A stretch of 64,000 bases of DNA from Asticcacaulis solisilvae (GTDB lineage Bacteria > Pseudomonadota > Alphaproteobacteria > Caulobacterales > Caulobacteraceae), in assembly GCF_017875235.1 (NCBI RefSeq), contig NZ_JAGGMI010000008.1, forward strand, positions 1 through 64,000, given 5' to 3'. Under the pieces are notes generated by a model, which worked only from the letters and a program-made list of their open reading frames with translations, was not told the DNA's origin and ran no database searches. The translations under genes and the position numbers were made by a program. Shown here piece by piece: positions 27,470-42,588 of the stretch (within the stretch, counting starts at the first letter, position 1; each line of letters starts with the position of its first letter).

Positions 27470-28615
27470 ATGCAGCAAGTAGCATTCAGCGGATTATGGC
27501 ACCGGGTACCAAAGCAACCTTCAGCGTCAGTCATTAAGAACCTTCAGGTACTCAGGTTTTTTGCCGCAGCCTGCGTCCTTTTTGAGCATGTGCAACACGA
27601 ATCCAGAACAAAGACATTTATTGACAACAGCCACTACCAGGCGGTCGACTTTTTCTTCTGGCCCGGTGGCGTCGATATTTTCTTCGTCATTAGTGGCTTC
27701 ATAATGTACACGATTGGTAGCCAGCAGTTCGGCAAGCCGGCAGCATCCGCCGACTTCATGCTCCGAAGGGTTATTCGTGTCGTCCCGACCTACTGGTTCT
27801 TCACAACACTCATGATTATTGCGGCGAGCGTATTCGCGGGAAGTGTAGACAAGGGCAGCATGTCCGTATCGGACATCGTGCAATCTTATTTGTTCATACC
27901 CTACGAGAATGCTTACAACGCCTACTATCCAGTACTTTCTCTTGGCTGGACGTTGAATTACGAGATGTTTTTCTACGTCCTATTTGCCATTTCCCTTCTA
28001 TTCGACTTCCGCAAAGGCATGATTTTTGTCATATCCAGTCTAGTGGTATTTGGGGTGGTTGGTATGACCGGCGTCATCCAGGCACCTGTAATTAAATTCT
28101 GGTTTAATTCGATTGTGCTCGAGTTTGTATTTGGTATCGGGCTCGCATGGCTCTACCAACGCGGATGGCGCCTTGGCGTATCTACAGGGCTTGGCCTCTC
28201 GATTGCGGGACTGTTATTGATTATTGTCGCCAAGCACTACAAACTTGATACATTTGCTCTCGATACCCGCGCTCTATGGCTGGGTATTCCTGCCCTCATG
28301 ATTTGCGCAGGCCTTGTCATGATAGAAAAACCAGGAACCGCTCACCCTGTCATTCATGCGCTTGTGTTCGGTGGGAATATATCTTTCGCCCTATATCTTT
28401 CACACCCATTCGCCATTAATGTAACTGGGCTGTTGTTTAAGAAGGCGGGAATTGACAACCCTTGGGTATTTATGACCGCGGCAATGATTGCCGCGTTGTG
28501 TGGAGCCGCAGCCTTTTATATGATTGCCGAAAAGCCAGCGACCAAGATACTGAACAAACTGGTGGTGAAAAAGAAGCCGGAGCCCACCTTTGCTCCCGAC
28601 TCTACACCGTCTTAG
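27470..28615 (+). CDS. Acyltransferase 3 family membrane protein (O-acetyltransferase type)
   Basis: This 381-residue integral membrane protein has about ten helices. It carries the family's early motif LQVLRFFAAACVLFEHVQHE with the catalytic-type His, then GVDIFFVISGFIMYTIGSQQ, and an R-x-P-TYWF segment (RRVIRVVPTYWFFTTLMIIA). Such enzymes O-acetylate surface polysaccharides such as LPS O-antigen, exopolysaccharide or peptidoglycan. The start has GGGGG-AACCGGA before the ATG. It is on the plus strand and is distinctly richer in A and T than its neighbours. In phages, genes of this kind change the host surface receptor and block further infection. It sits exactly where portal and capsid genes are expected. 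Confidence 0.88.
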   Translation: MQQVAFSGLWHRVPKQPSASVIKNLQVLRFFAAACVLFEHVQHESRTKTFIDNSHYQAVDFFFWPGGVDIFFVISGFIMYTIGSQQFGKPAASADFMLRRVIRVVPTYWFFTTLMIIAASVFAGSVDKGSMSVSDIVQSYLFIPYENAYNAYYPVLSLGWTLNYEMFFYVLFAISLLFDFRKGMIFVISSLVVFGVVGMTGVIQAPVIKFWFNSIVLEFVFGIGLAWLYQRGWRLGVSTGLGLSIAGLLLIIVAKHYKLDTFALDTRALWLGIPALMICAGLVMIEKPGTAHPVIHALVFGGNISFALYLSHPFAINVTGLLFKKAGIDNPWVFMTAAMIAALCGAAAFYMIAEKPATKILNKLVVKKKPEPTFAPDSTPS

Positions 28616-28712
28616 GTGCACCGAGACGCTTCTGTGCCTTTTCGATGATTGTACTTACTCTTTTGGTGCCTGCTTAAGTCATCGATCAACGCGACAATAT
28701 CCTTAGGCGCGT

Positions 28713-28755
28713 GAGGTGGATAGATAGACTCAGAGCACTTGTAGCTATCCACCTC
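28713..28755. terminator. Stem-loop between convergent acyltransferase and SGNH frames
   Basis: GAGGTGGATAG and CTATCCACCTC form an 11-bp perfect stem with a 21-base loop, followed by GCAGTAAAAATAG on the plus strand. It lies 97 bp after the acyltransferase stop and 35 bp from the end of the convergent terminase-SGNH frame. It could end transcription from either side. The loop is long and the T-run weak, so this is tentative. Confidence 0.45.
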
Positions 28756-28790
28756 GCAGTAAAAATAGAACCGCTATGAATCAACTGTGA

Positions 28791-30887
28791 CTACTGTGGA
28801 CTTGCTAATTGCCAGTAGCTCATCGCTATATCGTAGTATCCCTTACCCTTTAAATGTATAAAGTCATTGTAATAGTCGGTTGCTTGCGCGGATGCCAGAC
28901 TTGAGAATCGCGCCGACAGGTCGATCAATGGCAAATCAAGATCACTAGCCAGATCGTAGTACGCTTGCGCATACACTCCGTCGACGCTTGGATAGTTTGA
29001 GTTAAAAGGATGGTGCCGGACGAGAACCACGTCGCTATTCAATGACTTATATTTTGCGACAATTGCCCGTACGTTTGCTTTAAATGTTTCGACGGGAACA
29101 TTTGTATTTTTATCATTTATTCCAATGTTTAGGAAAATGAGATTGGGCTGCCAGGCATCCCACATATTCTGTCGCAACAACGGCGTACTGTTTTCCATCC
29201 AGGTCCCGCTGGCCGAGCCGTAGACCGCACCATTCAGAATACTGATCTTTGTATTTGTGCTATGATACGCTTCCATAAAGGGGATGCCGACAGATGCGCC
29301 TGAAACACGTGCCACCTGCCACGGATTGATACTGGCTGTGCGAGACCGGGTTGCAGTGAGAATCGCTTCCGTGCCGCTCGTTGTATCGACCGACGCTCCC
29401 GAAATAGTGCCGTTATCGTAGATGACAAAAGCCCCGCCGCCCGACGAACGAGCGTGATACCCGACAAGGATCGAGTCGGAGGCTTTGGCTGGTGTGTACG
29501 CAATCTTGTCAGTTATTGATGAGTTTTGAAACATACGGCCCTGAAGTGCCCAGCCCGTGTTTTCGAAGGTAATTTTCGGGTTGTAGTCCGTTACTCCGGC
29601 CAGACCCGTCATCGGTACGCCATTTGTGTAAACCTGTCCGTCGTGCGCCGTTTGAATCCCGGCACGATCGAAAAGGTCGGCCAAAAATGCCGACACGCTC
29701 CTATTGAAGGCGCCGGTTTGCCAAGTCGGCCCGGCAGAGCCGGCGCCAGCGTCCATGGTCGTGCTATCACCTGTAAAAGCGATCTTCGCCCTAGTGCCCC
29801 CAGCGGGTGATGTCGCTAGTGCAGCGCGCCAGTTCTTAAGAGACGAGGGTTTCAGATTATAGGCAACAAGTCCGCACCACGCCACAGCCGCCCCAAGCTC
29901 CGCATTCAAAGCCTGAAAGTGCGACCCGGCAAAGGCGCCCACGCCGATACTGTCATAGATGATCTCGGCGCCATGCTCTCGCGCCCCAAAATCGCGGGCT
30001 AAACCATGGACCCGCCCGGCCGACTTCAAAAGCTCGTCCTCGGCGGCCTTCCACTCCTCGACCCCGACGCACAGAAACCCGTGCGCCACCACGGCCGCGT
30101 TCAGATCGCCACCGCTGTCGGCCACATCGAAGCCAACCCGCCGCGCACCGACAGCCTCCAACCCCAACCGCCTATGCGCATCGATCGCAGCCCGCACCCA
30201 CGCCCGGCGGATAATGACGCTGTCATCGTCCTCGCGCGGCTCGCCTAAATAAATGTGGGCGTAATCCTCGGCATTCTCCACGCGCTTGGCATCGATCACG
30301 CGCCGGATGGTCCGCGACAAAAACGGGTTCTCGTCATAATTGATCCGCCGGCGCACCGTCCTTGGCGGCGTCTGCGTCACAAACCGCCGGTAGACGAAAT
30401 CGCTCGCCAGCCTGGGGTTGAAGATGATCCAGAACTGCGACCCCTCGCCCCTGAGCGTCGGCTCCAGCACCTCCCACTGCTCGGCCGTCAGGTTGTGCGC
30501 CTCCTCGATCCAGCAGATATCGATCGCTTCCAGCGACTTGATCTCGTCGATATGGCGCCACAGCCCGTAGAACAGGAACTCCGAACCCGTATGGCGATGC
30601 CGGATCGCGGTCTGGGTGACATGAAACTCATCACTCAACCCAAAGCGCGCGATCTGCAGCTTCAAAAGCGTATGGACCGACTCTGCGATCCGGTTCTGGA
30701 ACTGGCGCGCGCACAGAAACCGCACGCAGTAATTGGCCGCCAGGTACACAGCGAACCCCGCCGCGTCCCAGGACTTCGACGACGACCGCCCGCCATAGAG
30801 CACCCGGTTGCGCGCAGGCTGAGCCCAGAATGCGCGCAAAGCCGGATTAAGTGTCGGCCTGACAGGCTCCCGGCCTTGCTCAGTCAT
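28791..30887 (-). CDS. Chimeric ORF: truncated large terminase fused in frame to SGNH hydrolase
   Basis: The frame has 698 residues. Residues 1 to about 330 are a phage large terminase: Walker A in YGGRSSSKSWDAAGF, Walker B in IDICWIEEAHNL, motif QFWIIFNPRLASDF, and the start of the nuclease domain with FDVADSGGDLNAAVVAHG and IIYDSIGVGAFAGSHF. The last acidic residue and C-terminus of the nuclease are absent. From about WRAALATSPAGGTRAKI the frame is an SGNH hydrolase with TGDSTT (block I), LNIGINDKNTN (block III) and NDFIHLKGKGYY (block V), all catalytic residues intact. The second part is visibly AT-richer. The fusion replaces the end of terminase together with portal, protease and capsid genes. 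Terminase activity is unlikely; esterase activity is possible if the chimera folds. Confidence 0.85.
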   Translation of the reverse strand: MTEQGREPVRPTLNPALRAFWAQPARNRVLYGGRSSSKSWDAAGFAVYLAANYCVRFLCARQFQNRIAESVHTLLKLQIARFGLSDEFHVTQTAIRHRHTGSEFLFYGLWRHIDEIKSLEAIDICWIEEAHNLTAEQWEVLEPTLRGEGSQFWIIFNPRLASDFVYRRFVTQTPPRTVRRRINYDENPFLSRTIRRVIDAKRVENAEDYAHIYLGEPREDDDSVIIRRAWVRAAIDAHRRLGLEAVGARRVGFDVADSGGDLNAAVVAHGFLCVGVEEWKAAEDELLKSAGRVHGLARDFGAREHGAEIIYDSIGVGAFAGSHFQALNAELGAAVAWCGLVAYNLKPSSLKNWRAALATSPAGGTRAKIAFTGDSTTMDAGAGSAGPTWQTGAFNRSVSAFLADLFDRAGIQTAHDGQVYTNGVPMTGLAGVTDYNPKITFENTGWALQGRMFQNSSITDKIAYTPAKASDSILVGYHARSSGGGAFVIYDNGTISGASVDTTSGTEAILTATRSRTASINPWQVARVSGASVGIPFMEAYHSTNTKISILNGAVYGSASGTWMENSTPLLRQNMWDAWQPNLIFLNIGINDKNTNVPVETFKANVRAIVAKYKSLNSDVVLVRHHPFNSNYPSVDGVYAQAYYDLASDLDLPLIDLSARFSSLASAQATDYYNDFIHLKGKGYYDIAMSYWQLASPQ

Positions 30888-30951
30888 GTCTGATTGCCAC
30901 CTTGTCCCGCCAGGCCCCGGGGCAATACGCCCCGAAACCCGCAGGCAATGC

Positions 30952-32232
30952 CTACTCGCGCCACACCCACGACGGCGCGGTGCCATAGGTCACGGCGATC
31001 GTCTCGCCGGGTTCCAGAGTCAGGAAGCCGGTATTGATGCCGCTATAGGGATAGCCGTTGATCGTGATAGCCGAGACCGTACCGCCCCAGATGGCGACGT
31101 TGGCGCGCCGGCCCGTCTCGTTGGTCGTGGCCACACCGGACGCAGGCAAGGTCGGCGCCGTCATCGGCAGAACCCCGCGGCTTTCGATCGTTACGCCGGT
31201 ATAGCCGGCCGCAGCGACGAAGCTTGTCCCGCCGGTAATCGGCGCAGGCGTCGGGTTAATGACCAGGGTCGACACACCGGCCACAGCATCAATACCCGTA
31301 TCCGTATAGGACCACTGGCCGCCAATAAAGGTATTCGCGCTGACATTACCATTGACGATCTTCACGCAGGTCTCGACATTCTCCATGTCCAGGCAGTTGA
31401 AGACGTTCGACGCATTCACTCCGTCCTGGAGCTTCAGCGAAAACTGAGCCGTGCCATACGACCCGAAGAAGTGGTTGAACTGACACTGCCTCAGCTGCAG
31501 CGCCGTACCCAGACCGTCGTTTTCAGCCGTCTCGCCGCAGTTGACCTGCATGTCGAACCAACCGCCGACGACATAGTTCATCTTGACGCCGATGGCGCCA
31601 GTCACCTTGGCGAAGTTTTGCACAGTCACGTTCTGGAAGCGCGGCATGTTGACCGGATCAGCAAAGTTGTCTTCACCCAGCTGCAGCACGACCCCGTCGA
31701 TATCGCCGACAATGCCCAGGTCGCGCACCGTCAGGTAATAATTGTCCGGCACCGGCGTCGAGGTACAACGCACCGTCATGTTCGGCGACGTCGTCACCGT
31801 GCGCAGGTCCAGGATGGTGCGTTGCTGGCCATCACCGTAAATCAGCAGGCCTTCCGTGCGGAAAGCGTTCATCAGGATTTGCGGCGCCGTCGTGAACTTG
31901 TAGCGCCCTTCAGGGATATAGAGCGGCACATCGGCCATGGTGGCGCACACCGTCAGCGCGTCCTGGAACTTCCCCCAGTTATCGGACGTGTAGGTCGGGT
32001 CGGCGCCGAACCACAACAGGTTGGCCGCGCCGCTGAACACACGTTCCCAGTAATAACCGGACGTGACCGTGCTGGGCAGAATGATGCCTTCCTGGACATC
32101 CGAAAAAGGCACGGCGCCGCTGCGCAGCACGAAAGTGCCCTCGCGGCCGGTTTCGGTCAGAATGGCCGACGACGGCAAGGTCGTGGGCAGGCCCTTGAGG
32201 GCCGAACGGCTGGCGACTGTGGTGACTGCCAT
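30952..32232 (-). CDS. Phage tail spike-like beta-helix protein
   Basis: The protein has 426 residues starting MAVTTVASRSALKGLPTTLP with AAGGAGAC upstream. It continues VLRSGAVPFSDVQEGIILPS and ANLLWFGADPTYTSDNWGKF, the entry to a parallel beta-helix, then PLYIPEGRYKFTTAPQ and repeated turns (LDLRTVTTSPNMTVRC, FQNVTVQNFAKVTGA). The C-terminal domain is GETIAVTYGTAPSWVWRE. Such spikes bind or cleave host polysaccharides. Its place between the two terminase genes is unusual for a spike and suggests insertion or cargo exchange. Confidence 0.8.
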   Translation of the reverse strand: MAVTTVASRSALKGLPTTLPSSAILTETGREGTFVLRSGAVPFSDVQEGIILPSTVTSGYYWERVFSGAANLLWFGADPTYTSDNWGKFQDALTVCATMADVPLYIPEGRYKFTTAPQILMNAFRTEGLLIYGDGQQRTILDLRTVTTSPNMTVRCTSTPVPDNYYLTVRDLGIVGDIDGVVLQLGEDNFADPVNMPRFQNVTVQNFAKVTGAIGVKMNYVVGGWFDMQVNCGETAENDGLGTALQLRQCQFNHFFGSYGTAQFSLKLQDGVNASNVFNCLDMENVETCVKIVNGNVSANTFIGGQWSYTDTGIDAVAGVSTLVINPTPAPITGGTSFVAAAGYTGVTIESRGVLPMTAPTLPASGVATTNETGRRANVAIWGGTVSAITINGYPYSGINTGFLTLEPGETIAVTYGTAPSWVWRE

Positions 32233-32322
32233 AGAATGTCTCCTTGACACATGAAGGCACGCCCGGCCGCAAAGGGCCGGTGACATGCAGGGAAATTCGG
32301 TTGGAAGCGGACTAAGGCCGGC

Positions 32323-32568
32323 CTAATCCTGGCCGGATGCCTCGCCATAAAAATCCGCGAGGCTCTTTCTGACGGCGACATCGCCGGCGTGATCGACCGG
32401 TGGCACAGCCTTGCCATAGGCCCGGTCGAGTATGGCATTGGCGGCAGCGATCCTTGCGGTTGGCGCGGCCTCCGGGTCTTCGGCGATCGCGACCAGCACC
32501 TGGAAGGCGCGCTCGCCATGGGCCCGCGCCACCTCGGCGGCGGAAGCCTTTGCACCACGCTGCGTCAT
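32323..32568 (-). CDS. Small phage protein near terminase (terminase small subunit-like)
   Basis: The protein has 81 residues starting MTQRGAKASAAEVARAHGER. It is helical, with AFQVLVAIAEDPEAAPTARI and AANAILDRAYGKAVPPVDHA, a pattern common in small phage proteins encoded just before the large terminase. It may be a short terminase small subunit or a related DNA-packaging accessory. It is too short for a classical small subunit with its own helix-turn-helix. It marks the right end of the phage gene run; the 16-bp island repeat begins 42 bp upstream. Confidence 0.6.
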   Translation of the reverse strand: MTQRGAKASAAEVARAHGERAFQVLVAIAEDPEAAPTARIAAANAILDRAYGKAVPPVDHAGDVAVRKSLADFYGEASGQD

Positions 32569-32609
32569 GATTGAATGTCTTGATTGTGTTTTGGCAGGAG
32601 CGCTCAAAG

Positions 32610-32636
32610 CTCCGCACGATTATCGTCCCCGATAAC
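32610..32636. repeat. Left direct repeat of the 32.6-36.9 kb island
   Basis: GCTCCGCACGATTATC (32610-32625) is repeated exactly at 36842-36857. It is followed by GTCCCC and GATAACC, so the site has inverted arms GATTATC and GATAACC around 6 bases. This arrangement resembles tyrosine recombinase core sites, but could also be an operator. Confidence 0.75.
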
Positions 32637-32834
32637 CGCGCCGCAGGCCCCTGCCCACTACGCCCCCAACATGCGCTTTTAGGCTGCCGGAATCAATCTG
32701 GTGATTTGGAACTTTGTGGGAACAGACTTTACTGCCAGAGCGCAGCCAAAAGACTGGCCCGCAGGCAATGCTCGCAATGCTTGCATAACCAGTTTTTTCG
32801 GGCATGCTGAGGACAACCTTGGGAGGGCGAAAGG

Positions 32835-33545
32835 ATGCGAACTTACAATTTGGTTGTTACCGACGTAACACGGTACGGCACATTATACTGCGTTGCTGGA
32901 TGGGATTTACAAAATGGAGGCATGATCCGACCAGAGCCGCCAACGGCGGTTGCAACCATCGAGTCAACTCGATTCTGGACAAACCGAGACGCAGGACCAG
33001 GTCGTTTTTTTTCAGTTGGCAATATCGTTCGCTTTGAGGCGCAAGACGCACCGGCGAATTTCCCATTCCCTCATGCAACAGAAGATCGCATTGCCGTGAA
33101 TCCCGATAATAGCGCTGTGGTTGGGCACATGACATTGTTACAGGTCACTCAGGCGGTTGAGCCAGGTTTGTCCACATCAATCCCCGTGGCTTTCGGCAAT
33201 CAATTACACGTAGCTAGTTCGGGAAAAGCCTACGTTACATTAGGTTCGCAAACTAACTCACTAGGCGCCATAGAAATTGATTCACAAACTATTGCCTTTT
33301 ATGAAAACGCTCCCAAACCTGGCAAACGGCAATTACGCGCTATGATATATCAGAATGGAAGCGGGTACGACTTATCGGCACCCGCCGATGCCGCTTTAGA
33401 TCGTTTCTTTGCTGGAGGTATTGCAGCGTTACAAGCTGATGCTAAAGCAAGCAAAAAAATTCATGTGCGCCTTGGTTTAAGCCGCCCCTTCCCAGCGATG
33501 CCGACCTCCTGCTATGCACAAATTAATGGCTTGTATTTTCTGTGA
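32835..33545 (+). CDS. Probable dual-OB domain protein (unknown function)
   Basis: The protein has 236 residues starting MRTYNLVVTDVTRYGTLYCV, with AAAGG just before the ATG. The pattern of an opening strand, C-V-A-G-W, GGMIRPEPPTA, then FFSVGNIVRFEAQDAP recalls dual-OB proteins, which contain two small beta-barrels and are found with nucleic-acid-related partners. The middle has VGHMTLLQVTQAVEPGLSTS and the end RLGLSRPFPAMPTSCYAQIN. No enzymatic motif is visible. Two DUF488 genes follow on the same strand, after a 115-bp gap. The family call is by eye and not certain. Confidence 0.6.
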   Translation: MRTYNLVVTDVTRYGTLYCVAGWDLQNGGMIRPEPPTAVATIESTRFWTNRDAGPGRFFSVGNIVRFEAQDAPANFPFPHATEDRIAVNPDNSAVVGHMTLLQVTQAVEPGLSTSIPVAFGNQLHVASSGKAYVTLGSQTNSLGAIEIDSQTIAFYENAPKPGKRQLRAMIYQNGSGYDLSAPADAALDRFFAGGIAALQADAKASKKIHVRLGLSRPFPAMPTSCYAQINGLYFL

Positions 33546-33660
33546 CGGAAAACGGGAAGCCTTATGTGTTGAGAAGCGATGGCTAAGCGTCATGGTCATT
33601 AGTAAGTCACCATGAAATTGAACGTCTATGTATCGCTACTAGCCTAAGCAGGAGTTATAT

Positions 33661-34284
33661 TTGTCAGGGGCAGATGCAGAAATTTTGACGATAGGGCACT
33701 CGACGCTTTCCTACGAACACTTTTTAGAGTTGCTTCGGAAAGCAGCCGTTAATGCTATTGCAGATGTACGGTCCTCACCATTCTCTAAGCACTTTCCCCA
33801 TTTTAATCGCCATTCTTTACGTACTGAACTGCGCCGAGATAACATAGCATATGTGTTTCTCGGAGACGAGTTAGGGGGCCGTCCAAAGGACAACCGCTTC
33901 TTTTGCGAAGGTGTGGCCGACTATGAGAAAATGGCAAAGACTGAAGAATTTGCATGGGGGCTTGATCGAGTAATCGAAGGCGCGAAAAAGTACCGAATCG
34001 CGATGATGTGTTCGGAGCACAATCCATTAGATTGCCACCGCTGCCTGCTGGTGGGACGGGCGCTTCACGAGCGGAAGGTTTCGGTACGTCATATTCTCGG
34101 TAACGGTCGAACAGTTGATCAGTCCGAAATTGAAGCAAGGTTGATGGAAATCTCTGGCAAAAGTCACCAAGATTTTTTTGAGCCAGCAGAAAAACGACTC
34201 TCTGCGGCTTACAGAGATAGAGCTATGAAGGTCGCATTCTCCATGAAGAAAGATCAAACACAAAACTCAGACCGCACGGAGTGA
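33661..34284 (+). CDS. DUF488 family protein (copy 1)
   Basis: The protein has 207 residues. The start is TTG at 33661 with AGGAG 6 bases before; no nearby ATG fits. Family motifs are clear: ILTIGHSTLSYEHFLELLRK, AIADVRSSPFSKHFPHFNRH, VFLGDELGGRP and MMCSEHNPLDCHRCLLVGRA. The Cys/His cluster in the last motif is conserved in the family and may be catalytic or metal-binding. DUF488 proteins are of unknown function but often occur in accessory regions. It continues beyond the usual ~150 residues with a charged C-terminus. The next DUF488 gene begins 5 bp after. Confidence 0.85.
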   Translation: MSGADAEILTIGHSTLSYEHFLELLRKAAVNAIADVRSSPFSKHFPHFNRHSLRTELRRDNIAYVFLGDELGGRPKDNRFFCEGVADYEKMAKTEEFAWGLDRVIEGAKKYRIAMMCSEHNPLDCHRCLLVGRALHERKVSVRHILGNGRTVDQSEIEARLMEISGKSHQDFFEPAEKRLSAAYRDRAMKVAFSMKKDQTQNSDRTE

Positions 34285-34288
34285 TAAA

Positions 34289-34735
34289 TTGATCAGCGCA
34301 GATATATCCACCATTGGATTTACAAAAACTACCGCAGAAAGTTTTTTTAACCGAATCAAACGATCGGGTATAAAAAAAATAATAGATGTTCGTCTGCACA
34401 ATACTTCACAACTCGCTGGATTTGCCAAATCCGAAGATCTAGCATACTTCCTTAGAGAGGTATGTGGTGCTCAGTATATTCATCAACCTCTCCTTGCACC
34501 TACCGATGATATTTTGAAGGCCTTCAAACGTGACAAAGGTGATTGGAATATTTACGAGAGATCCTTTTTAAATCTCATGGAAAATAGAAAAATCGAAGAT
34601 AAGTTCAAACCAGAAATGTTGCATAGTAGCTGCCTACTTTGCTCAGAAGACAAACCACATCATTGCCATAGGCGCCTTGTCTGCGAATATCTAAACAAAA
34701 AATGGGGCGGCGCACTTAAAGTTCGGCACCTCTAA
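34289..34735 (+). CDS. DUF488 family protein (copy 2)
   Basis: The protein has 148 residues with start TTG 34289, GGAG 7 bases upstream. It has ISTIGFTKTTAESFFNRIKR, KKIIDVRLHNTSQLAGFAKS, AYFLREVCGAQYIHQPLLAP and CLLCSEDKPHHCHRRLVCEY. It is a shorter, divergent DUF488 protein that keeps the C..E...CHR box. Together with copy 1 it is likely to form a pair, perhaps a heterodimer. It ends 41 bp before the stop of the convergent regulator gene. Confidence 0.85.
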   Translation: MISADISTIGFTKTTAESFFNRIKRSGIKKIIDVRLHNTSQLAGFAKSEDLAYFLREVCGAQYIHQPLLAPTDDILKAFKRDKGDWNIYERSFLNLMENRKIEDKFKPEMLHSSCLLCSEDKPHHCHRRLVCEYLNKKWGGALKVRHL

Positions 34736-34776
34736 TTCTGTAGAAACGCATCACAGTTCGGAGCTCACAATCGGCA

Positions 34777-35970
34777 TTAGGAATTCCGCTTGAATGGAAT
34801 GACGACACCGTCAGCGCCGCTACCACTTATCTTCGTTCTTGGCTTCAATTGCACGACCTCACCTTCCTTGGAGCTAAACCAACCAGGGGGCAAGGACGCC
34901 AAGCGCTCCACATCGCCAGCAGACATTGTAAATTCCACGGAAAGCAAATCAGCTTTAGTGCGCGTTCCCGAATCCACAATCAACTCAAGTGAGTCATGCA
35001 ATAATCTAGGCTTAGAAACCGACCATTGCTTGTCTAATGGCTCTTCGCTTGTCCACCCCTTCGCCGAGTAAAGCTTGTACATCTGAAGCATATGCTCTGA
35101 CGGAATCATCTTCATATCCGACAGACGCCTAATCTGCGCCTTGATCGAAACGCGCCACCGCTCCTTCAATGCGAGCAAACTCGCCAACGACGGCCGAGAA
35201 ACTTCATACGGATAGGTTGTGGACGGCATCAAAAACGCACTAGCTAAACGGAAAGCTTGCGTTTCAATGAATTTAAGGTTGTCCCGCAATTCTTCCCGCG
35301 AAACTCCACGGTGAAGCAAGGCATGGGCCATTTCGTGAGCCGCATCCATCTGCCGACGCGGATAACACATCTTGTCGGTGGCCAACAAAATATGAGGTCG
35401 GTCTTCCGACAGAGACCAACTGCAAAGACCATCCAGTTTCGAGGTCCCCATTTCAATGGTTCCGACCACGATGCCGATTCTTTCAAGAAGCGCGACCATG
35501 TCAGGGCATGGTCCCTCACCAATTTGCCAATACCGGCGCAAATCGACAGCAATACGTTCTAAGTCGTCATCACGTAATTGCTTATAATGCGCTCCGCCAA
35601 GGACGTCAGGTAAATCGACATTTGGCAGGTCAACATAATGCTGCACTAAATGGCTGATCTCATGCAGCCAATTCATTTGTGAGTGCTGATAAGCCAGATC
35701 GCTAACCAGAGTGCTAACTAGTGAGCGATGAAATAGGGGCCGCGATGGTGAGAATGATGGACGCAAAAAGAAATCACGACGTACCTTCAAGGTACCAGAC
35801 AGAAGACCTAATGCTTCCGCATCGGGCGCACTCGTACCGTCCTCCCAACGGGTGACGGTACTTGGCGCGACACCTAGAATTCTGGCAAGCTCCGACTTGC
35901 TGCCTATGCGACGAGCCTGCCGTGCTTCTGCCAATCGATCCGGTATAAAGCCTGGTGTTCCTACGCGCAT
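34777..35970 (-). CDS. XRE helix-turn-helix plus ImmA/IrrE metallopeptidase regulator
   Basis: The protein has 397 residues. An N-terminal helix-turn-helix (residues ~10-65: EARQARRIGSKSELARILGV then APSTVTRWEDGTSAPDAEAL) is followed by a zinc peptidase domain with the HExxH motif in AAHEMAHALLHRGVSREEL, near residue 215. The C-terminal ~100 residues are unrecognised. Proteins of this class (as in ImmA with ImmR, and IrrE/PprI) cleave or control a repressor in response to DNA damage or a signal. It lies 15 bp downstream of the 35986-36693 gene, so both are cotranscribed. Many toxin-antitoxin and defence loci carry such regulators. Confidence 0.88.
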   Translation of the reverse strand: MRVGTPGFIPDRLAEARQARRIGSKSELARILGVAPSTVTRWEDGTSAPDAEALGLLSGTLKVRRDFFLRPSFSPSRPLFHRSLVSTLVSDLAYQHSQMNWLHEISHLVQHYVDLPNVDLPDVLGGAHYKQLRDDDLERIAVDLRRYWQIGEGPCPDMVALLERIGIVVGTIEMGTSKLDGLCSWSLSEDRPHILLATDKMCYPRRQMDAAHEMAHALLHRGVSREELRDNLKFIETQAFRLASAFLMPSTTYPYEVSRPSLASLLALKERWRVSIKAQIRRLSDMKMIPSEHMLQMYKLYSAKGWTSEEPLDKQWSVSKPRLLHDSLELIVDSGTRTKADLLSVEFTMSAGDVERLASLPPGWFSSKEGEVVQLKPRTKISGSGADGVVIPFKRNS

Positions 35971-35985
35971 AATTGTCCTAATTTG

Positions 35986-36693
35986 CTATTTGGTGCCGGT
36001 TTTGCCTCCCTCGTCATTGCGTTTCTCAGGCGGAATGAAGGGAGACACGTTCTTCTTAAGTGCCACCTGTGCTGACGGCGGCTTAGGCGGCTCCGTCGGC
36101 ATAGGGCCGGGGGTCTCCTCGTCATCGCTCAAGAATTTGTCAAGCGTTTCGTAGAAGACGAAGGCCTCGTATTCGGCATCGATAATGCCGATAGCGACCT
36201 CTTCAATGTGTCCGGCCCGACCACGATCCCGCGCAACCACCAAAAGCACGAAAATATCGCCAATTTTAGGGCCTGTGCCGTCAAAATCGAGCCGGGGAAC
36301 CAGATCGTAATTTAGCGTCACGCCCGCTTTGCGAGACTTATTCACCGGAGGCAGAGACGTTGATTCCGGTATCGCCGCCAGACCAAGAATAATGCCTTGG
36401 CCGTCGATTTCCTTCCGCAAAAACGGTTGAAAAACCTTGAGCTCGGTGCCGGGGATAACACCGCCCTCTAGCCGTAACCAGCCATGAAGCTCGGCGATCA
36501 CTTCGAACCGATGCTCCATCATACGGAAGCGCAACTGTCCTTCCGATTCCCGAGCACGCTTTAAATCGAGGCCAGTGTGGTCTCGCACAACTGTGAAGGC
36601 CTTCAACGCCTCGCCGCGCAGGCCATCTTCCAAGTCAATTAATAGTGCCTTTGTTATACTCGCGCACAAAAGGCGCTTCAATTCCGATGCCAT
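35986..36693 (-). CDS. Unrecognised protein paired with the ImmA/IrrE regulator
   Basis: The protein has 235 residues starting MASELKRLLCASITKALLID; the ATG at 36693 is the first that avoids the AT-rich leader. The N-terminal third is helical (LDLKRARESEGQLRFRMMEH), the middle strand-rich (KVFQPFLRKEIDGQGIILGL, NYDLVPRLDFDGTGPKIGDI, FVLLVVARDRGRAGHIEEVA). The last ~60 residues are a Pro/Lys-rich disordered tail, EETPGPMPTEPPKPPSAQVA then FIPPEKRNDEGG. I do not recognise a family. Its pairing with an XRE-ImmA/IrrE protein suggests it is a sensor, substrate or toxin-like partner. Confidence 0.75.
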   Translation of the reverse strand: MASELKRLLCASITKALLIDLEDGLRGEALKAFTVVRDHTGLDLKRARESEGQLRFRMMEHRFEVIAELHGWLRLEGGVIPGTELKVFQPFLRKEIDGQGIILGLAAIPESTSLPPVNKSRKAGVTLNYDLVPRLDFDGTGPKIGDIFVLLVVARDRGRAGHIEEVAIGIIDAEYEAFVFYETLDKFLSDDEETPGPMPTEPPKPPSAQVALKKNVSPFIPPEKRNDEGGKTGTK

Positions 36694-36841
36694 CCGAACA
36701 GTCCCACAACACAAACCACGGAAATTATGCCGTGATTTTTGCGTAAAGCAAGATATCTATTCGATATTTTTCCTTACCGGTTGCTTTAGGCGAGCGGTCG
36801 CAAAAAAGATGAGCGATAACAGTTCCTTACAACTGGGCAAT

Positions 36842-36863
36842 GCTCCGCACGATTATCCTATTC
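36842..36863. repeat. Right direct repeat of the island, with perfect palindrome
   Basis: GCTCCGCACGATTATC is identical to bases 32610-32625. Here GATTATC-CTATTC-GATAATC is a perfect 7-bp inverted repeat around 6 bases. It lies about 150 bp upstream of the minus-strand start at 36693. The region 36694-36987 holds this site and AT-rich sequence but no gene that I can see. Confidence 0.75.
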
Positions 36864-36987
36864 GATAATCCTAAACGAGCAGGTTAATCCAATTGATAGA
36901 TGGTGACGCAATTCTGGCCCCCGAATCAATGCCCCATTTGAAACTTAATGCGTACCATTTCGGAAAGCGGTTTTGATGAAAAGGTGC

Positions 36988-37446
36988 TCAGTGACAGGAT
37001 ATTGATGGCGAAATTGATTTCCGTGCGTGAGACAAAGGCGCGGAGTTATCTCCCTCTAAATCAGCTCCCGCCGCCGCCTCATCAAACCCGTCCTCCTTGC
37101 TGAGCCGCAAGGTCCCTGCCCCCACGGGCTCCGTCAGATCGCGGTCCAGCCGTCCGGCCAGGTACGGCTCCCATTCGTCCGGGTGCAGGATCGCCGGTTC
37201 GCGGTCGTGCAGCGCCGACATATCCGCGCCTGCGGCGTGCGTCAGCATGGTGCAGCTCGTCACCACGCCATCCGCCGTCGTCGCCGTGTCGTAAAGCCCG
37301 GCGAACATCATTTGGTGATTGTCCGCCCGCCCGATCCGCCAGCGCTGCGTCTTGCGCTTGTCGGTCGGATGCGGCCCGGACCGTTCCCAGAAATAGGCCG
37401 CCAGCATCATGCAGACGGCTTGCGCGGTCCATCCCGTCGCTCCCAC
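36988..37446 (-). pseudogene. C-terminal fragment of a SRAP (YedK/HMCES-type) peptidase gene
   Basis: The 152-codon frame shows the C-terminal half of the SOS-response-associated peptidase family: AAYFWERSGP, WRIGRADNHQMMFAGLYDTA and CTMLTHAAGADMSALHDREP then AILHPDEWEPYL. The His in ALHDR and surrounding residues fit the active site. The N-terminal ~100 residues, including the catalytic Cys2 that crosslinks to abasic DNA, are absent; the frame begins with a GTG directly after the stop of the next gene. The fragment stands at the border of the island, so its truncation may date from an insertion or deletion there. Confidence 0.75.
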
Positions 37447-37447
37447 C

Positions 37448-37879
37448 TCAAACCTGCGGCGGCATGCGCCACGCCCGCGGCTGACGGCGCAGCGGCTTCA
37501 GCTTGACCGGCTCCAGCACCAGCAGAACCAGCGCCAGGCTGTTGAGTATGGCGCAGGTCACCAGCACATAGATCATATCGACGCCAAACAGCGCATCGCC
37601 CTGGTCGCCGTACCAGTAGAGGACAAGCGTGCAGGCGATGCTCAGGCCGATGGCGGCCCAGGCGCTGCCCGATATCAGCCGCCGCCGGATAACGGGATAA
37701 AGCGTGTTCAGCACCAGGCTCAGCCCCAGGCAGGCCACGCAGGCGGCATAGCCGTAGAGCGCGATATCGACAGCGCCAAGCTGCGGAAAGGCGTCAACAA
37801 GCCGGCCGGACACGGCGGCCGCCATCAGGCCAACAATGCCGGCAGCCACAAGCAAACGGTCCAAGATCAGCGTGATCAT
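37448..37879 (-). CDS. Small four-helix membrane protein, unknown
   Basis: The protein has 143 residues with ATG 37879, GGGGAGG 8 bases before. It has four hydrophobic helices: LLVAAGIVGLMAAAVSG, IALYGYAACVACLGLSLVLN, SAWAAIGLSIACTLVLYWYG, and VLVTCAILNSLALVLLVLEP. The C-terminus is basic (KLKPLRRQPRAWR). No family recognised. The frame upstream of 37879 is noncoding-looking and overlaps the leader of the divergent DUF4349 gene. Confidence 0.7.
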   Translation of the reverse strand: MITLILDRLLVAAGIVGLMAAAVSGRLVDAFPQLGAVDIALYGYAACVACLGLSLVLNTLYPVIRRRLISGSAWAAIGLSIACTLVLYWYGDQGDALFGVDMIYVLVTCAILNSLALVLLVLEPVKLKPLRRQPRAWRMPPQV

Positions 37880-38009
37880 CGCCCAAACCTCCCCAGGTTG
37901 CACAACTATACACAATTCCGCCACAATTGCCAATGTGCACAGGTGAACGCCATCCCGCCTTGCAAACCGCGCAACCCCAGGCATACTCGGCCAAAACAGG
38001 GGAGCTATT

Positions 38010-38909
38010 ATGTCCGGTCGCAGAAGCTTAAGCGCGGTGCTGTTTGTGACGCTCTCACTTGCCGCTTGCAATCAGCAACCCGCCCGAAACAGTGCCGGCT
38101 ATGCCGACGCCGCGCCCGAAAGCATGATGCTGGAGGCCGCCCCGGCCGCAGCCTCGCCCGCCGACACTGGCGCTCCCTCAAACACCGCCATCGCCGTCGC
38201 GGTCCCGCAACTGGCCTATAATTACGAATACAGCTTCGTCCTCCCCGCCGCCCGCCTCGAAGCAATGGTCGCCGCCCACCAGAAGGCCTGCGACGCCGCG
38301 GGTCCCGCGACCTGCCAGATGATCTCGGCGCGCGGCAGCAACGACAAGGACGCCTCAAGCCTCTCCCGCACCCTCGTCATGCGCGTCACGCCGGCCTGGC
38401 TCAAAACCTGGCAATCGCGCCTCGACGCCGACATCAAAAAGGCCAATGGCCGCATCTCGCGCCACAGCGTCGAAAGCGAGGACCTGAGCCTCCAGATCGT
38501 CGACACCGAAGCGCGCCTCAAGAACAAGGAGGCCCTGCGCGACCGCCTGGCCGAGATCGTCCGCAGCCGCCCCGGCAAGATCGCCGACCTGGTCGAGGCC
38601 GAAACCCAGCTGGCCCAGGTCCAGGGCGACATCGACGCCGCCCGCTCCTCGCTTAACGTCATGAAAAAGCGCGTGGCGACCGTCCACCTGACGCTCACCT
38701 ACGAAAGCGAAGCCGTCGCCGCCTCCTCGGGCACCTTCGCGCCGCTTGGCGACGCGATGAACAGCATCGTGCGCAACATGGTCTGGGCGCTGGCCTCGCT
38801 GATCCACCTGATCGCCTACGCCGTTCCGTTCGTCCTGTTGGGCGCGGGCGCGGTCTGGCTTCTCCGCCGCTGGTGGAAGGCCCGCAAGGCAAGGCGCGGC
38901 GATCAATAA
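38010..38909 (+). CDS. DUF4349 family lipoprotein
   Basis: The protein has 299 residues. The signal peptide ends at a lipobox, LSLAAC, near residue 20. A low-complexity Ala/Pro linker follows, then the DUF4349 domain with a beta strand pair (AYNYEYSFVLPAARLEAMVA) and a long coiled coil (DLSLQIVDTEARLKNKEALR, AEIVRSRPGKIADLVEAETQ, LAQVQGDIDAARSSLNVMKK). A strand (ATVHLTLTYESEAVA) and a C-terminal membrane helix (LIAYAVPFVLLGAGAVWLLR) with basic tail complete it. The role in the envelope is unknown. Confidence 0.88.
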   Translation: MSGRRSLSAVLFVTLSLAACNQQPARNSAGYADAAPESMMLEAAPAAASPADTGAPSNTAIAVAVPQLAYNYEYSFVLPAARLEAMVAAHQKACDAAGPATCQMISARGSNDKDASSLSRTLVMRVTPAWLKTWQSRLDADIKKANGRISRHSVESEDLSLQIVDTEARLKNKEALRDRLAEIVRSRPGKIADLVEAETQLAQVQGDIDAARSSLNVMKKRVATVHLTLTYESEAVAASSGTFAPLGDAMNSIVRNMVWALASLIHLIAYAVPFVLLGAGAVWLLRRWWKARKARRGDQ

Positions 38910-38991
38910 CCGCGCGCTTATCCTCCCGCGCCGCAAAACCCATCGCCCTTCGACGTCCCGGCATGGTGCAATGCCCGCGAAGGAGCCCGCC

Positions 38992-39120
38992 ATGCCTCAC
39001 CACACCCTGCCCCCTGAGCCTGCCACCCAGCGCGTCATCGGCTGGATGATCCGCGACGGTTTCGAACTGACCATCGTCGCCAATGCGCCGGGCGCTCAGC
39101 CGTCCTTCAGCGCGCCGTAG
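38992..39120 (+). CDS. Possible small ORF of 42 codons
   Basis: From ATG 38992, with AAGGAG 6 bases upstream, a frame encodes MPHHTLPPEPATQRVIGWMI, then RDGFELTIVANAPG and a stop at 39120. It overlaps the end of the convergent SDR gene by 25 bases. The good ribosome-binding site is the only support. It may be a real small protein or the remnant of a larger gene. Confidence 0.35.
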   Translation: MPHHTLPPEPATQRVIGWMIRDGFELTIVANAPGAQPSFSAP

Positions 39121-39923
39121 AAATACGACGCCGTCACCCCGCCATCCATCAGCACGTCGCTGCCGGTGATGAAGCCACCCTCCGGCCCCATCAGCAGGGC
39201 CGCCACATTGGCCACCTCTTCCGGCGTCCCCGCCCGCCGCGCCGGCGACAGAGCGATCATCCGCCGATAGCCCTCCCCGCGCGGCCCGTTCAACTCATCT
39301 TCACCCAGGGGCGTCAGGATAATCCCCGGACTGATGGCGTTCACCCGGGCGCCGAACGTGCCCCACCGCGCGGCTTCGGCCATCACTCGCAAACTATTGC
39401 CCCGCTTGGACAGCTGATAGGCGTGCAGTTCATCCCGGATCGCCTCGGGCCGCAGAAACGGCAACGCCAGCAACTGCGCGGCGGGCGTTACCGCCAAACC
39501 CCGGTTCTGCTCGGCCGATAAGGCCTCCAGCCTGTGCCCGGACTGCGAAGCTATCACCACGGCCGACCCGCCCGGCGCGATGACGTGGCCGAATTCCTCC
39601 AGCACCACCGCAGTGCCATACAGGTCCACCTCAAGGATCCGCTCGACCGAAGCCTGCGACGGCGACACCCCGGCCGCATGGACCAATCCCGTGATATTGC
39701 CGATCGTGCTCGCCGTATCGACGACCTCCAGCACCGAGTCGCGCGACGCCACATCGACCCGCGCCGTGCTCGCGCGCAAACCTGCCGCGCGCAAAGCCTC
39801 CGCCGCCGCCCCGGCAGTGTCGGGCTTTACATCCGCCACCACCACATGACGGTCGCCCGCCACCCGGCGCGCGACGGCCTGGCCGATGGCCCCGGCCCCA
39901 AGCAATACCAGCACGCTGTCCAT
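39096..39923 (-). CDS. Short-chain dehydrogenase/reductase (SDR)
   Basis: The protein has 275 residues. The NAD(P)-binding loop is LLGAGAIGQAVARRV, residues 7-20 (a GxGxxG variant), with ADVKPDT after strand 2 favouring NAD. NAG is replaced by LVHAAGVS. The catalytic Ser lies in VVIASQSGH and the Tyr/Lys pair in ELHAYQLSKRGNSLRV. The end has ARVNAISPGIILTPL and FITGSDVLMDGGVTASYFYG. The insertion around residues 140-170 (LPFLRPEAIRDELH) is typical of a subgroup of uncharacterised SDRs. The substrate cannot be told. Confidence 0.9.
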   Translation of the reverse strand: MDSVLVLLGAGAIGQAVARRVAGDRHVVVADVKPDTAGAAAEALRAAGLRASTARVDVASRDSVLEVVDTASTIGNITGLVHAAGVSPSQASVERILEVDLYGTAVVLEEFGHVIAPGGSAVVIASQSGHRLEALSAEQNRGLAVTPAAQLLALPFLRPEAIRDELHAYQLSKRGNSLRVMAEAARWGTFGARVNAISPGIILTPLGEDELNGPRGEGYRRMIALSPARRAGTPEEVANVAALLMGPEGGFITGSDVLMDGGVTASYFYGALKDG

Positions 39924-40103
39924 GACCTGTCTCCTTTCCCGCCGCGGATAAACCCTAATCCGCCGGAATGAAACCTGAGATTGACGCCCATCGCCATTTC
40001 TGCTGACCTGCGCGCCAGGTAGCGACCGTTAGCCATACGCGACACATTGATTTTTTATGCCAGCGGCGGCATTCACTAATTTTCTTCAATTTGGCGAATT
40101 CAC

Positions 40104-40418
40104 ATGCAGACCCATCCTGCACTCATAGAGCGGTCGGTCGGCTCCACCTTGTGCAGCTTTTCACGAGGCAAGCTGACATTCGAAGAAGCCGCTCTGGACC
40201 TGTTCGAAGTGGTTTCGAGCCAGATCAGCGGCCGAACCCATTATTCGATGGCCATCATCGGCTACTATGTCCGCGCCATCCTCGCCGGCATGCGCAACCG
40301 GGAAATCGCCCTGGCAGACGCGTTCGATGCATTCGTCGACGCCGCAGCCGCCGGGACGCAGGGGCATTGCTCGGTCACATCGCGATTAGCGCAACCTCTG
40401 TCCAGCGCCCGCGCCTAG
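40104..40418 (+). CDS. Hypothetical protein, unrecognised
   Basis: The protein has 104 residues starting MQTHPALIERSVGSTLCSFS and then GKLTFEEAALDLFEVVSSQI and YSMAIIGYYVRAILAGMRNR. It is helical, without signal peptide. Codon use looks coding (GC-rich third positions). It converges on the DUF4287 gene with a 4-base overlap at 40415-40418. No known family; moderate support. Confidence 0.5.
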   Translation: MQTHPALIERSVGSTLCSFSRGKLTFEEAALDLFEVVSSQISGRTHYSMAIIGYYVRAILAGMRNREIALADAFDAFVDAAAAGTQGHCSVTSRLAQPLSSARA

Positions 40419-40627
40419 GCCTTATCCTCTGCCAGGGTGTGCGCGACGATGGCATTGGCGTGTCCGTGGCCCATGCCGTGCCCGGTCTTCAACAGCGCGA
40501 CCAGTTCCATGTGCTTGGCCGGATAGCCCTGCCGCACGATGGCTTTCCATTCGGCGATCGGACGGCCATACTTTTTCTCGATGGACGGAAAATAGGACGC
40601 AGGTCCTTTGATTGGCTGATCTGTCAT
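40415..40627 (-). CDS. DUF4287 family protein
   Basis: The 70-residue protein has the whole DUF4287 pattern: GPASYFPSIEKKYGRPIAEW, then KHMELVALLKTGHGMGHGHA with NAIVAHTLA. The His-rich HGMGHGHAN box is diagnostic. The function is unknown. The start ATG at 40627 precedes the conserved domain by 9 residues; the longer frame to 40696 is not needed. Confidence 0.9.
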   Translation of the reverse strand: MTDQPIKGPASYFPSIEKKYGRPIAEWKAIVRQGYPAKHMELVALLKTGHGMGHGHANAIVAHTLAEDKA

Positions 40628-40705
40628 GCACCGATTAATGCGTCTCGCCACCGCCTTGTCAACGGCGTCCAAGGCGCTACGCCTACGCGCCGGCAATCCC
40701 GCCCC

Positions 40706-41254
40706 TCACTTCCGCAGCCTGACAAAGGTGCCGCCATACCAGTTGCCCGTCGCCTCGCCCTTTGAATCAAACTGCCTGGATATCATGCTGTACTCATGTG
40801 CGGTTATCCAGGTGTACTCGTAAACGCGATAAGTCCCGTCGGGCTCGTCGGTGAACCGGAGCGTCAGACGAAGGTCTCCACCGGGGCTGATGCCACCCGT
40901 GCCCACGCCAAGGCGGCGATCGCCGAAATGCGACAGGTGATGCACCTGCCCGGACGTCTGGTCGAAGGCCCAGAAAATATGCCCTTTTAGTCCGCCGGCA
41001 TCGACGACGCACATTACCGATTGCGATGTATTCACGGTCTTGCATTCCGTGTGATGGCGGGGAATTGTAACCGTTTCGACGGTGTGCCCGTCCCATACCT
41101 GGCTGAACTTGTCATCCTTCAGCGTCCATTCGCCAAAGAAGGCGACAAATGGGTTCGATGCTTCCAGGGCTTTTTCGGTTTCCCTGGCGCAGACAACAGG
41201 CGTGGCGGTCGCGCATGAAAGTAACACCAATAGCAAGGCAGCAATTGATTTCAT
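40706..41254 (-). CDS. Exported protein of unknown function
   Basis: The protein has 182 residues with ATG 41254. The signal peptide is KSIAALLLVLLSCATATPVV with a cleavage site about residue 23. The mature domain is strand-rich: FFGEWTLKDDKFSQVWDGHT, GLKGHIFWAFDQTSGQVHHL, LRLTLRFTDEPDGTYRVYEY and NWYGGTFVRLRK. This looks like a calycin-type barrel as in DUF1579-like proteins, though I am not sure. It is divergent from the sensor kinase pair with a 266-bp spacer and could be a target of that system. Confidence 0.75.
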   Translation of the reverse strand: MKSIAALLLVLLSCATATPVVCARETEKALEASNPFVAFFGEWTLKDDKFSQVWDGHTVETVTIPRHHTECKTVNTSQSVMCVVDAGGLKGHIFWAFDQTSGQVHHLSHFGDRRLGVGTGGISPGGDLRLTLRFTDEPDGTYRVYEYTWITAHEYSMISRQFDSKGEATGNWYGGTFVRLRK

Positions 41255-41520
41255 CAGAACATGCTCCGAAAAGTGGAGACGGCCCTCTCCTTCGGCCCGT
41301 CCTTGTCCCGGCACCATAGGGACGGCGGCGCTGACGTCTCGCGCAAATTCAATCAACGGGGCCGCGGCCCCCGCGAGCGGGACCGCCGTTCGAACACCGA
41401 AAGCCGCTTGCGGGCAGTAAGGTCCCGCTTAACGGAATGTCCGCATTTTGGAGGAGACAGTGGGTAGGCTGCCATGTGACGCATCGGACCAACGCGCTGC
41501 AGCCGAGAGAACGAGATGAA

Positions 41521-42588
41521 ATGAGCGATATCCGTTTGGCGAACTGGAAACAGGGCCTCATCTACAACCTGCTCATATGGACCGGTGTCGCCATATTCAC
41601 GGCAACGCAATGGTATTTTGGCAGCCTCGCCGCGGGACGCGACGTCTCCTGGTGGCAGACCTGGAGCTATTCCATACGGTCTTCCGCAGTATGGGCGCTG
41701 CTGACGCCGCTCATTTACCTAGTCGTCAGATTTACCGGTTTTCGAATTTCAGCGCCCTGGCCCGCGCTCGGAATATATCTTCTCACGGGCCTTGCCGTCG
41801 CCGCCGCCCACTGCGTCATCTTTACACCGCTGCAATGGCTTCTGGCGCCCCGTGAGCCTGGAGTCGCCTTCACGGGCCTGCTGTTGCGGCTGCTCGCCGA
41901 CAAGCTTTACATGAACCTGCTTGTTTTCAGCATCGTCGTCGCCGTTCTCCTGGCGCTGCAGGCCTATCGCGACCTGAGGGAACGGGAATTACAGGCGGCG
42001 GAGTTGCAAACGCGTCTAGTCGAAGCCGAAATTTCGGCGTTGCGGGCGCAGTTGCAGCCTCACTTCCTCTTCAACACGCTCAATGCGATATCCGCGCTTG
42101 TAGAGTCCCAGCCGGTACGCGCCAAGCGTCTCGTCGCGCGGCTCGGCGACCTCCTGCGCATCTCGATCGAAAGACACCGGGGCCAGACAACGACGCTCAG
42201 GGACGAACTGATATTCTGCCGGGCCTATGCCGCCATAGAAAAGGCGCGGCTGGGTCGCCGTCTCCGCGTGCTTGAAGCCATTTCTCCCGATAGCCTGTCC
42301 GCGCGGCTACCAGCACTCCTGTTGCAGCCGTTGATCGAGAATGCCGTCCGGCACGGGATCGCACCCAAGCGTGGCCAGGGAACCATACACGTCAAGGCGG
42401 CGATGGAGAACAACAGCCTGCATCTTACGGTATCGGATGACGGCATCGGTGCCGAACATATCGTGGAACACATAGGCCTTGGCAACGCCCGGGACAGGCT
42501 ACGCCATCTTTACGGAAGCAGGCACCGGTTTGAAGTCGCGCATGCGCCCGGCAGCGGGTTTACCGTTACCCTGGTGGTGCCCCAGTGA
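41521..42588 (+). CDS. LytS-type sensor histidine kinase
   Basis: The protein has 355 residues with ATG 41521. Four membrane helices (LIYNLLIWTGVAIFTATQWY, SSAVWALLTPLIYLVVRF, LGIYLLTGLAVAAAHCVIF, MNLLVFSIVVAVLLALQAYR) lead into a short coiled coil and the His-kinase box LRAQLQPHFLFNTLNAISAL, whose His is the phosphorylation site. The ATP lid has LLQPLIENAVRHGIAPKRGQ (N box) and VSDDGIGAEH then GLGNARDRLRHLYG (G boxes). The frame overlaps the response regulator gene by 4 bases. No extracellular sensing domain is visible, so the signal is probably in or near the membrane. Confidence 0.93.
   Translation: MSDIRLANWKQGLIYNLLIWTGVAIFTATQWYFGSLAAGRDVSWWQTWSYSIRSSAVWALLTPLIYLVVRFTGFRISAPWPALGIYLLTGLAVAAAHCVIFTPLQWLLAPREPGVAFTGLLLRLLADKLYMNLLVFSIVVAVLLALQAYRDLRERELQAAELQTRLVEAEISALRAQLQPHFLFNTLNAISALVESQPVRAKRLVARLGDLLRISIERHRGQTTTLRDELIFCRAYAAIEKARLGRRLRVLEAISPDSLSARLPALLLQPLIENAVRHGIAPKRGQGTIHVKAAMENNSLHLTVSDDGIGAEHIVEHIGLGNARDRLRHLYGSRHRFEVAHAPGSGFTVTLVVPQ

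Follow-up and report, generated by a model that had tools for sequence, protein, structure and literature searches.

Described systems closest to the island

Two groups of described systems bear on a 4.2-kb island of five genes found beside a prophage in Asticcacaulis solisilvae, within the 64,000-nucleotide stretch of DNA that was analysed as a whole and is referred to here as the window. The first is RosmerTA, a published antiphage toxin-antitoxin family. As described in parts of one report (PMC10440598), phage-borne RosmerTA protects narrowly against phages, the Kita-phage toxin depolarises the membrane and is only partly neutralised by its antitoxin, and with a RosmerTA relative that has antiphage activity, translation, transcription and replication are quickly lost. 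The second group comprises PDC-M45, a candidate system of PADLOC-DB with the gene order DuOB-DUF488-DUF488, and the DuOB-DUF488-SLOG-DUF4326 modules of plasmids and prophages, in which DuOB, a tandem-OB-fold protein, is likewise followed by a C-type DUF488 protein (DUF488 being a domain of unknown function). The third enzyme of these modules is DUF4326, which carries a minimal SLOG domain as a fusion in each of the three scanned, whereas that of the island is a B-type DUF488. On balance the island is best read as prophage-side cargo with two independent modules, RosmerTA and a PDC-M45-like DuOB module.

The RosmerTA arm

The convergent arm of the island is identified from its sequence as RosmerTA. 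Both of its proteins match the PADLOC models nearly end to end (Table 1) and, as in RosmerTA, the toxin gene rmrT comes first and adjoins rmrA, from which it is separated by 15 bp. RmrA scores far better against the RmrA model of PADLOC than against capP (E 4e-199 against 2e-11), and it combines an XRE helix-turn-helix (HTH) domain with an ImmA/IrrE domain whose HExxH metalloprotease motif reads HEMAH at residue 212. A first-pass annotation of this DNA had rightly named an XRE-ImmA/IrrE metallopeptidase, for which HTH_3, Peptidase_M78 and the HEMAH motif were all found. Its description of the neighbouring 235-residue protein as unrecognised no longer holds, that protein matching the RmrT model. 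Unlike the membrane-depolarising Kita-phage toxin, the island RmrT, whose activity here is predicted, contains no strongly hydrophobic segment in a simple hydropathy scan, and its target may therefore differ. Relatives of RmrT were found in 12 plasmid records and in one of 289 genomes of the class, that one being this genome itself.

The DuOB-DUF488-DUF488 arm

The second arm is, as judged by profile matches, PDC-M45-like and falls short of strict PDC-M45 membership. Its two DUF488 proteins match the B and C models of PDC-M45, both exceed the Pfam PF04343 cut-off of 22.2 bits (81.9 and 79.8 bits) and they are related to each other (profile comparison 97.7%, E 2e-12). In the B-type protein C117, E119 and C125-H126-R127 are invariant in 12 of 12 sequences, and in the C-type protein D33, R35, C115, C118, E120 and C126-H127-R128-R129 are invariant in 33 of 33. 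This invariance of the key Cys, Glu and Cys-His-Arg residues suggests that both are active enzymes.

DuOB directly precedes B and C in the island, so that the PDC-M45 gene order is kept. PDC-M45A is itself DuOB: the model PDLC04656 matched in two of 11 genomes or records searched, picking out on one plasmid of A. tumefaciens and one of R. atsumiense the DuOB gene that immediately precedes B and C. Four PDC-M45A models match the DuOB proteins of loci L029, L086, L094 and L109 and miss those of L087 and L004. At E up to 1 the window DuOB had no match in PADLOC, the PDC-M45A models included, and PDLC04656 found nothing in this genome; the arm is filed as PDC-M45-like because this defining model is unmatched. 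Unlike the DuOB proteins that the PDC-M45A models recognise, the window DuOB belongs to a second branch (branch II), together with those of R. hainanense, two congeners and at least three loci of IMG/VR (L087, L108 and L118). Branch-II proteins share the residues T9-D10-x-T12, R212-x-G214-L215-x-R217 and N231-G232-x-Y234 and are linked to canonical DuOB by profile-profile comparison (96% probability, E 4e-9). The Pfam DuOB model found this genome only among the 289 of the class, a count that may be an understatement since at E 1e-3 the same model leaves the branch-II DuOB of one congener (L127) unmatched.

The first-pass annotation had postulated a probable dual-OB protein and two tandem DUF488 proteins with a C..E...CHR box. 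Both proposals were borne out, the former by a score above the Pfam DuOB cut-off and a predicted tandem-OB fold, the latter by the PF04343 scores of both proteins and the conservation of the box.

Table 1. Features of the island and its borders (positions in the window)
Feature	Position	Strand	Basis
DuOB, divergent tandem-OB-fold protein, 236 aa	32835..33545	+	Pfam PF22557 36.4 bits (cut-off 27)
B-type DUF488 (PDC-M45B), 207 aa, start TTG	33661..34284	+	PDLC04657 E 1.1e-82
C-type DUF488 (PDC-M45C), 148 aa, start TTG	34289..34735	+	PDLC04658 E 2e-69
RmrA, RosmerTA antitoxin, XRE HTH + ImmA/IrrE, 397 aa	34777..35970	-	PDLC03956 E 4.3e-199; Peptidase_M78 + HTH_3
RmrT, RosmerTA toxin, 242 aa from TTG (235 from internal ATG)	35986..36714	-	PDLC03942 E 9.9e-91
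Left copy, 31-nt imperfect direct repeat	32605..32635	+	16-nt exact core 32609-32624
Right copy, 31-nt imperfect direct repeat	36838..36868	+	16-nt exact core 36842-36857
Prophage terminase large subunit fused to tail-protein C-terminus	28791..30986	-	phrog_3717 E 7.8e-75 (residues 42-277); phrog_15881 at 378-722
Phage open reading frame, divergent from DuOB	32323..32607	-	phrog_15261 (unknown function); small-terminase-like by position only

Separation of the two arms and borders of the island

No RmrA or RmrT was detected in the vicinity of the DuOB arms of R. hainanense and the two congeners (67-76% identity to the island for the former; 24%, 51% and 63% for the latter). RmrT lay near none of the other DuOB-arm loci scanned, and RmrA gave a single match near them, with a weak score (E 5e-4), to an ImmA/IrrE protein of L022. 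Twenty plasmid records match island DNA, each in one arm only and none in both. The occurrence of DuOB arms elsewhere with no detected RmrTA close by, and the lack of a plasmid record with both, are the grounds on which the two arms are treated here as independent cargo.

The island has a GC content of 0.492 against 0.608 on the prophage side and 0.630 on the right side, and the two arms themselves differ (0.39-0.49 for one and 0.51-0.55 for the other). At each of its GC borders lies one copy of a 31-nt direct repeat (84% identity between copies) that contains a 16-bp exact core. The exact 16-mer has two copies in the whole 5.0-Mb assembly, both at the island edges, and no third. The window contains several further pairs of identical 16-mers away from the island edges. 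Of 300 dinucleotide shuffles of positions 31500-38000, two produced an exact direct repeat of 16 or longer whose copies stood 500 or more apart, and the repeats are for this reason probably, not certainly, meaningful. The layout given by the first-pass annotation, five genes in two convergent arms, AT-rich against a GC-rich background, enclosed by exact 16-bp direct repeats and bordering on a prophage, is in agreement with all of these results.

The late genes of the prophage lie to the left of the island on the minus strand. Its terminase (residues 42-351) runs in frame into a tail protein (residues 378-722), which indicates that the prophage is decayed; the genes normally found between the terminase and tail genes appear to have been lost. 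An IMG/VR contig of the same prophage is identical over the 7,450 bases compared and ends exactly where the first DUF488 gene ends.

A prophage attachment site was also considered. This reading was rejected, as the tRNA-Thr border (9900-10400) shares with positions 28000-42000 only two 12-base matches of a chance-like kind; the lack of a third copy of the exact 16-mer in the assembly also opposes it. A search for an empty site with the right flank against 41 genomes (own included) gave, outside the genome itself, short partial matches only.

An alternative explanation is that the neighbourhood arose by chance, deletion of the early region of the decaying prophage having joined two sets of cargo with the repeats incidental to it. 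The fusion of terminase and tail protein is consistent with such an origin, as are the shuffles that reach the same repeat length, the other 16-mer pairs in the window and the fact that no integrase was seen among the open reading frames of the island. It is opposed by the position of the repeats at both GC borders, and we regard it as possible, with the odds against it. An origin of this kind would leave the identities of the genes unchanged.

Linkage of DuOB and C-type DUF488 in other genomes

A scan of IMG/VR with an alignment of 12 C-type proteins, ten of them from DuOB-linked loci, returned 36 loci. DuOB adjoins C in 35 of these (34 by the first profiles and L117 by a branch-II profile), a proportion that is biased upward because the query alignment came mostly from DuOB-linked loci; the single exception, L119, holds B and C. 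Nor are the loci all independent, as 32 DuOB sequences (those of the window and L004 included, and the four near-copies L091, L092, L098 and L105 omitted beforehand) fall into 22 clusters at 60% identity. The third gene could be assessed in the 34 loci with enough sequence, the contigs of L101 and L102 ending soon after C. It is DUF488-B in 12 (11 separate genes and one L117 frame covering both B and C), DUF4326 in 22 and both in none. The constancy of C, accompanied by either B or SLOG-DUF4326 and never by both, suggests that second enzymes are interchangeable around a DuOB-C core.

On plasmids, canonical-type DuOB was found in 23 records (placement by coordinates for 19 of them), and C follows directly, or after B, in 16, in one of which (L078) the DuOB frame is broken. 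In three further records DuOB is in pieces or apart from C (L025, L083 and NC_010261, the last placed by having the same size and match coordinates as L025). The case of L025 (132-5227, Salmonella plasmid pA172) is that of a short DuOB frame, with an ISEcp1-blaCMY segment standing between it and the DUF488-DUF4326 genes. C matches 129 plasmid records, and several among the matches listed (40 of 129) carry it with no DuOB (L026, L028, L081 and L082). The window DuOB used as query found no relative among plasmids. In IMG/VR the single window C gave no match and the single window DuOB only the same prophage.

Predicted folds

An AlphaFold (AF2) model of DuOB built from 32 sequences (pLDDT 91.1, pTM 0.84) has a tandem-OB fold. 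When it was compared with solved structures by Foldseek, HIN-200 DNA sensors (AIM2, IFI16 and MNDA) came out best with baculovirus LEF-3, RPA and Teb1 also listed, all of them tandem-OB nucleic-acid binders; LEF-3 leads in a comparison with viral models. The best PDB match is weak (E 7e-4, TM 0.37/0.44, rmsd 7.7 Å, 9% identity) and the scores give no evidence of common descent with HIN-200, LEF-3 or RPA beyond the OB fold itself. A sequence search of solved structures with a canonical DuOB (L022) gave five matches at E 0.3-0.8; with DUF488 B and C as queries nothing was returned at E up to 1.

The AF2 model of the C-type protein (pLDDT 90.8) has no structural match at E 0.001 or below. CobU leads (E 0.01), followed by protein tyrosine phosphatases and tetrapyrrole methylases at E of about 0.02-0.1. 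DUF4326 has been assigned to the rhodanese-phosphatase superfamily, as stated in part of one paper (PMC9503650). The matches of the C model are compatible with that assignment. A 2023 paper by Burroughs and Aravind reportedly extended it to DUF488 and is said to have predicted the processing of nucleic-acid ends or nucleotides in conflict systems.

Genomic contexts and the case for an antiphage function

As in the window, terminase homologues are found upstream on the opposite strand, no more than 3.5 kb away, in at least 12 of the 36 IMG/VR loci (11 of them within 1.2 kb). This figure is a lower bound with no baseline, the terminases having been sought through homology to five of the loci and in a scan of neighbours that listed 25 of 93 families; PHROGs confirmed 5 of the 12. 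In two IMG/VR contigs, L094 (4692-6426) and L099 (4671-6426), the three genes (DuOB-DUF488-DUF488) stand between the BREX genes pglX and pglZ, with brxL following; the part of a 2026 BREX survey that was available (PMC12839542) mentions DUF488 or DuOB 0 times. In Allochromatium the three genes are found amid cas1, csx16 and csm6 of a CRISPR locus, and HORMA and AAA genes lie near L022. A CapH-type HTH protein and a CapP-type ImmA/IrrE protein adjoin the module in the three loci tested (L022, L090 and L095). No separate capH and capP were found beside the module in the window, where the island holds RmrA only. For 82 neighbours in the remaining loci, the PADLOC matches listed (25 of 43 families) include BREX, type IIG and CapH/CapP, and among the PHROG matches listed (25 of 93 families) transcriptional regulators are commonest (4 of 82).

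C is patchily spread, being present in 8 of 289 genomes of the class and 3 of 25 of the genus (own included). Two congeners, out of 24 other genomes of the genus, carry a chromosomal branch-II DuOB-DUF488-DUF488 set between gcvT and an NYN-domain gene (L127 7598-9278 and L128 6878-8557).

Solitary C-type DUF488 genes were observed on conjugative plasmids (L028 4989-5420 and L026 4995-5426) beside uvrA or uvrB and formaldehyde-detoxification genes. In an Aeromonas plasmid the neighbours of one such gene are uvrB and a gene for formaldehyde dehydrogenase. This setting hints at a DNA-damage role of the enzyme.

From its linkage and contexts, an antiphage function of the DuOB arm is likely. The suggestion in the first-pass annotation that the island is plausibly antiphage is thus well supported for the RosmerTA arm, as a published family, and indirectly for the DuOB arm, through its BREX, CRISPR, HORMA/AAA-side and prophage-cargo contexts. 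Beyond the upward bias and partial redundancy of the linkage counts, several observations weigh against such a function. None of the seven other class genomes with C has a detectable DuOB nearby (in two cases the contig breaks off at the locus, and L021 has B beside C). There is no relative of canonical DuOB or of C among 50,697 named phage records, so that the link to phages rests on IMG/VR predictions and the window. The gcvT/NYN setting of the congeners is no obvious defence island. C also occurs alone, and on an IncC plasmid its neighbours are uvrA and formaldehyde genes, which means that it may serve stress or repair. The HIN-200 matches of DuOB do not exceed a TM of 0.44, with rmsd at least 7.4 Å, and for the C model CobU, no phosphatase, ranks first. 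Finally, no functional report on any M45 member or on DuOB-DUF488 was found in the open-licence literature.

Several of these points would fit an arm that is no defence system and acts as a phage or plasmid helper or in DNA repair, for example in the processing of DNA ends or crosslinks. The terminase-side position in IMG/VR loci is in keeping with this, as are the plasmid-borne single C genes that neighbour uvrA or uvrB and formaldehyde genes, and the chromosomal setting in two congeners. Terminase-side sites are ordinary cargo sites too. Such a role is harder to reconcile with the presence of the module inside BREX operons and a CRISPR locus, with the CapH/CapP-type regulators that it carries and with its patchy distribution, and we think it rather unlikely.

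An integrated five-gene system, with the ImmA/IrrE arm as the sensor of phage or damage and the DuOB-DUF488 arm under its control, as the first-pass annotation held, is very improbable, for although one repeat pair encloses both arms and the CapH/CapP-type pair beside the module in three loci makes protease regulation plausible in general, no RmrA or RmrT was detected near the DuOB arms of R. hainanense and the two congeners, each of the 20 plasmid records matches a single arm, RmrT is rare, RmrA fits the antitoxin models far better than CapP and stands next to its own toxin gene, and the GC contents of the arms are unlike. Co-occurrence of the two arms in other genomes, proposed at that stage as a check, failed for RmrT, which was found near no other scanned locus; an echo of it is the HTH-ImmA/IrrE pair of the CapH/CapP type in three of three loci tested. 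The locus is no new five-gene machine, since half of the island is the known RosmerTA system. The impression that the system had not been described is not supported, RmrTA being published and the other arm being close to PDC-M45.

Possible modes of action

By analogy with its published family, RmrA would bind or repress RmrT in healthy cells. A phage trigger would lead to the loss of RmrA, probably through its own ImmA/IrrE protease, and the RmrT so freed may then arrest the cell in an abortive infection.

For the DuOB arm, a probable DNA-targeting defence module, the favoured model is one in which DuOB is the DNA-binding part and the two DUF488 proteins are enzymes acting on nucleic-acid ends or nucleotides. 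The tandem-OB protein, as its predicted fold suggests, may bind DNA and bring the two enzymes to it. The reaction of these enzymes, which have a conserved Cys-x-Glu...Cys-His-Arg loop, is most likely a phosphoryl or sugar transfer on nucleic-acid ends or a nucleotide, and it may block the invading DNA. The observations themselves cover gene content, families, linkage, contexts and predicted folds, while DNA binding, catalysis and defence are inferred. More tentatively, and with considerable doubt, DuOB-DUF488 can be seen as a widespread antiphage family with a HIN-200-like DNA sensor, a constant DUF488 and an interchangeable second enzyme that would alter the ends of invading DNA or cap them, carried on the terminase side by prophages and absorbed between pglX and pglZ by BREX.

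Other features of the prophage region

Within the late region of the prophage, on the opposite strand, lies an acyltransferase gene (Acyl_transf_3; 27410-28615, plus strand), possibly a surface-modifying lysogenic conversion gene. Near the left end, also on the opposite strand, is a gene for a beta-lactamase-fold serine hydrolase with C-terminal TPR repeats (13162-14709, plus strand). Near-duplicate segments about 405 bp apart, seen as runs of shared 16-mers, occur at 22305-22785. Just beyond the right repeat is a fragment of a SRAP (SOS-response-associated peptidase) gene (36988-37446, minus strand) that covers profile positions 98-182 of 214 and looks truncated at its start.

Significance

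Both PADLOC and Pfam have models that partly miss the second branch of DuOB. With a protein of DNA-binding type tightly linked to a pair of enzymes, the DuOB arm is a candidate defence set with good indirect support, found on prophage-like contigs, on plasmids and in BREX and CRISPR loci. In it DUF488 gains a concrete and testable setting, and the mutually exclusive third genes, DUF488-B or DUF4326, point to a shared reaction.

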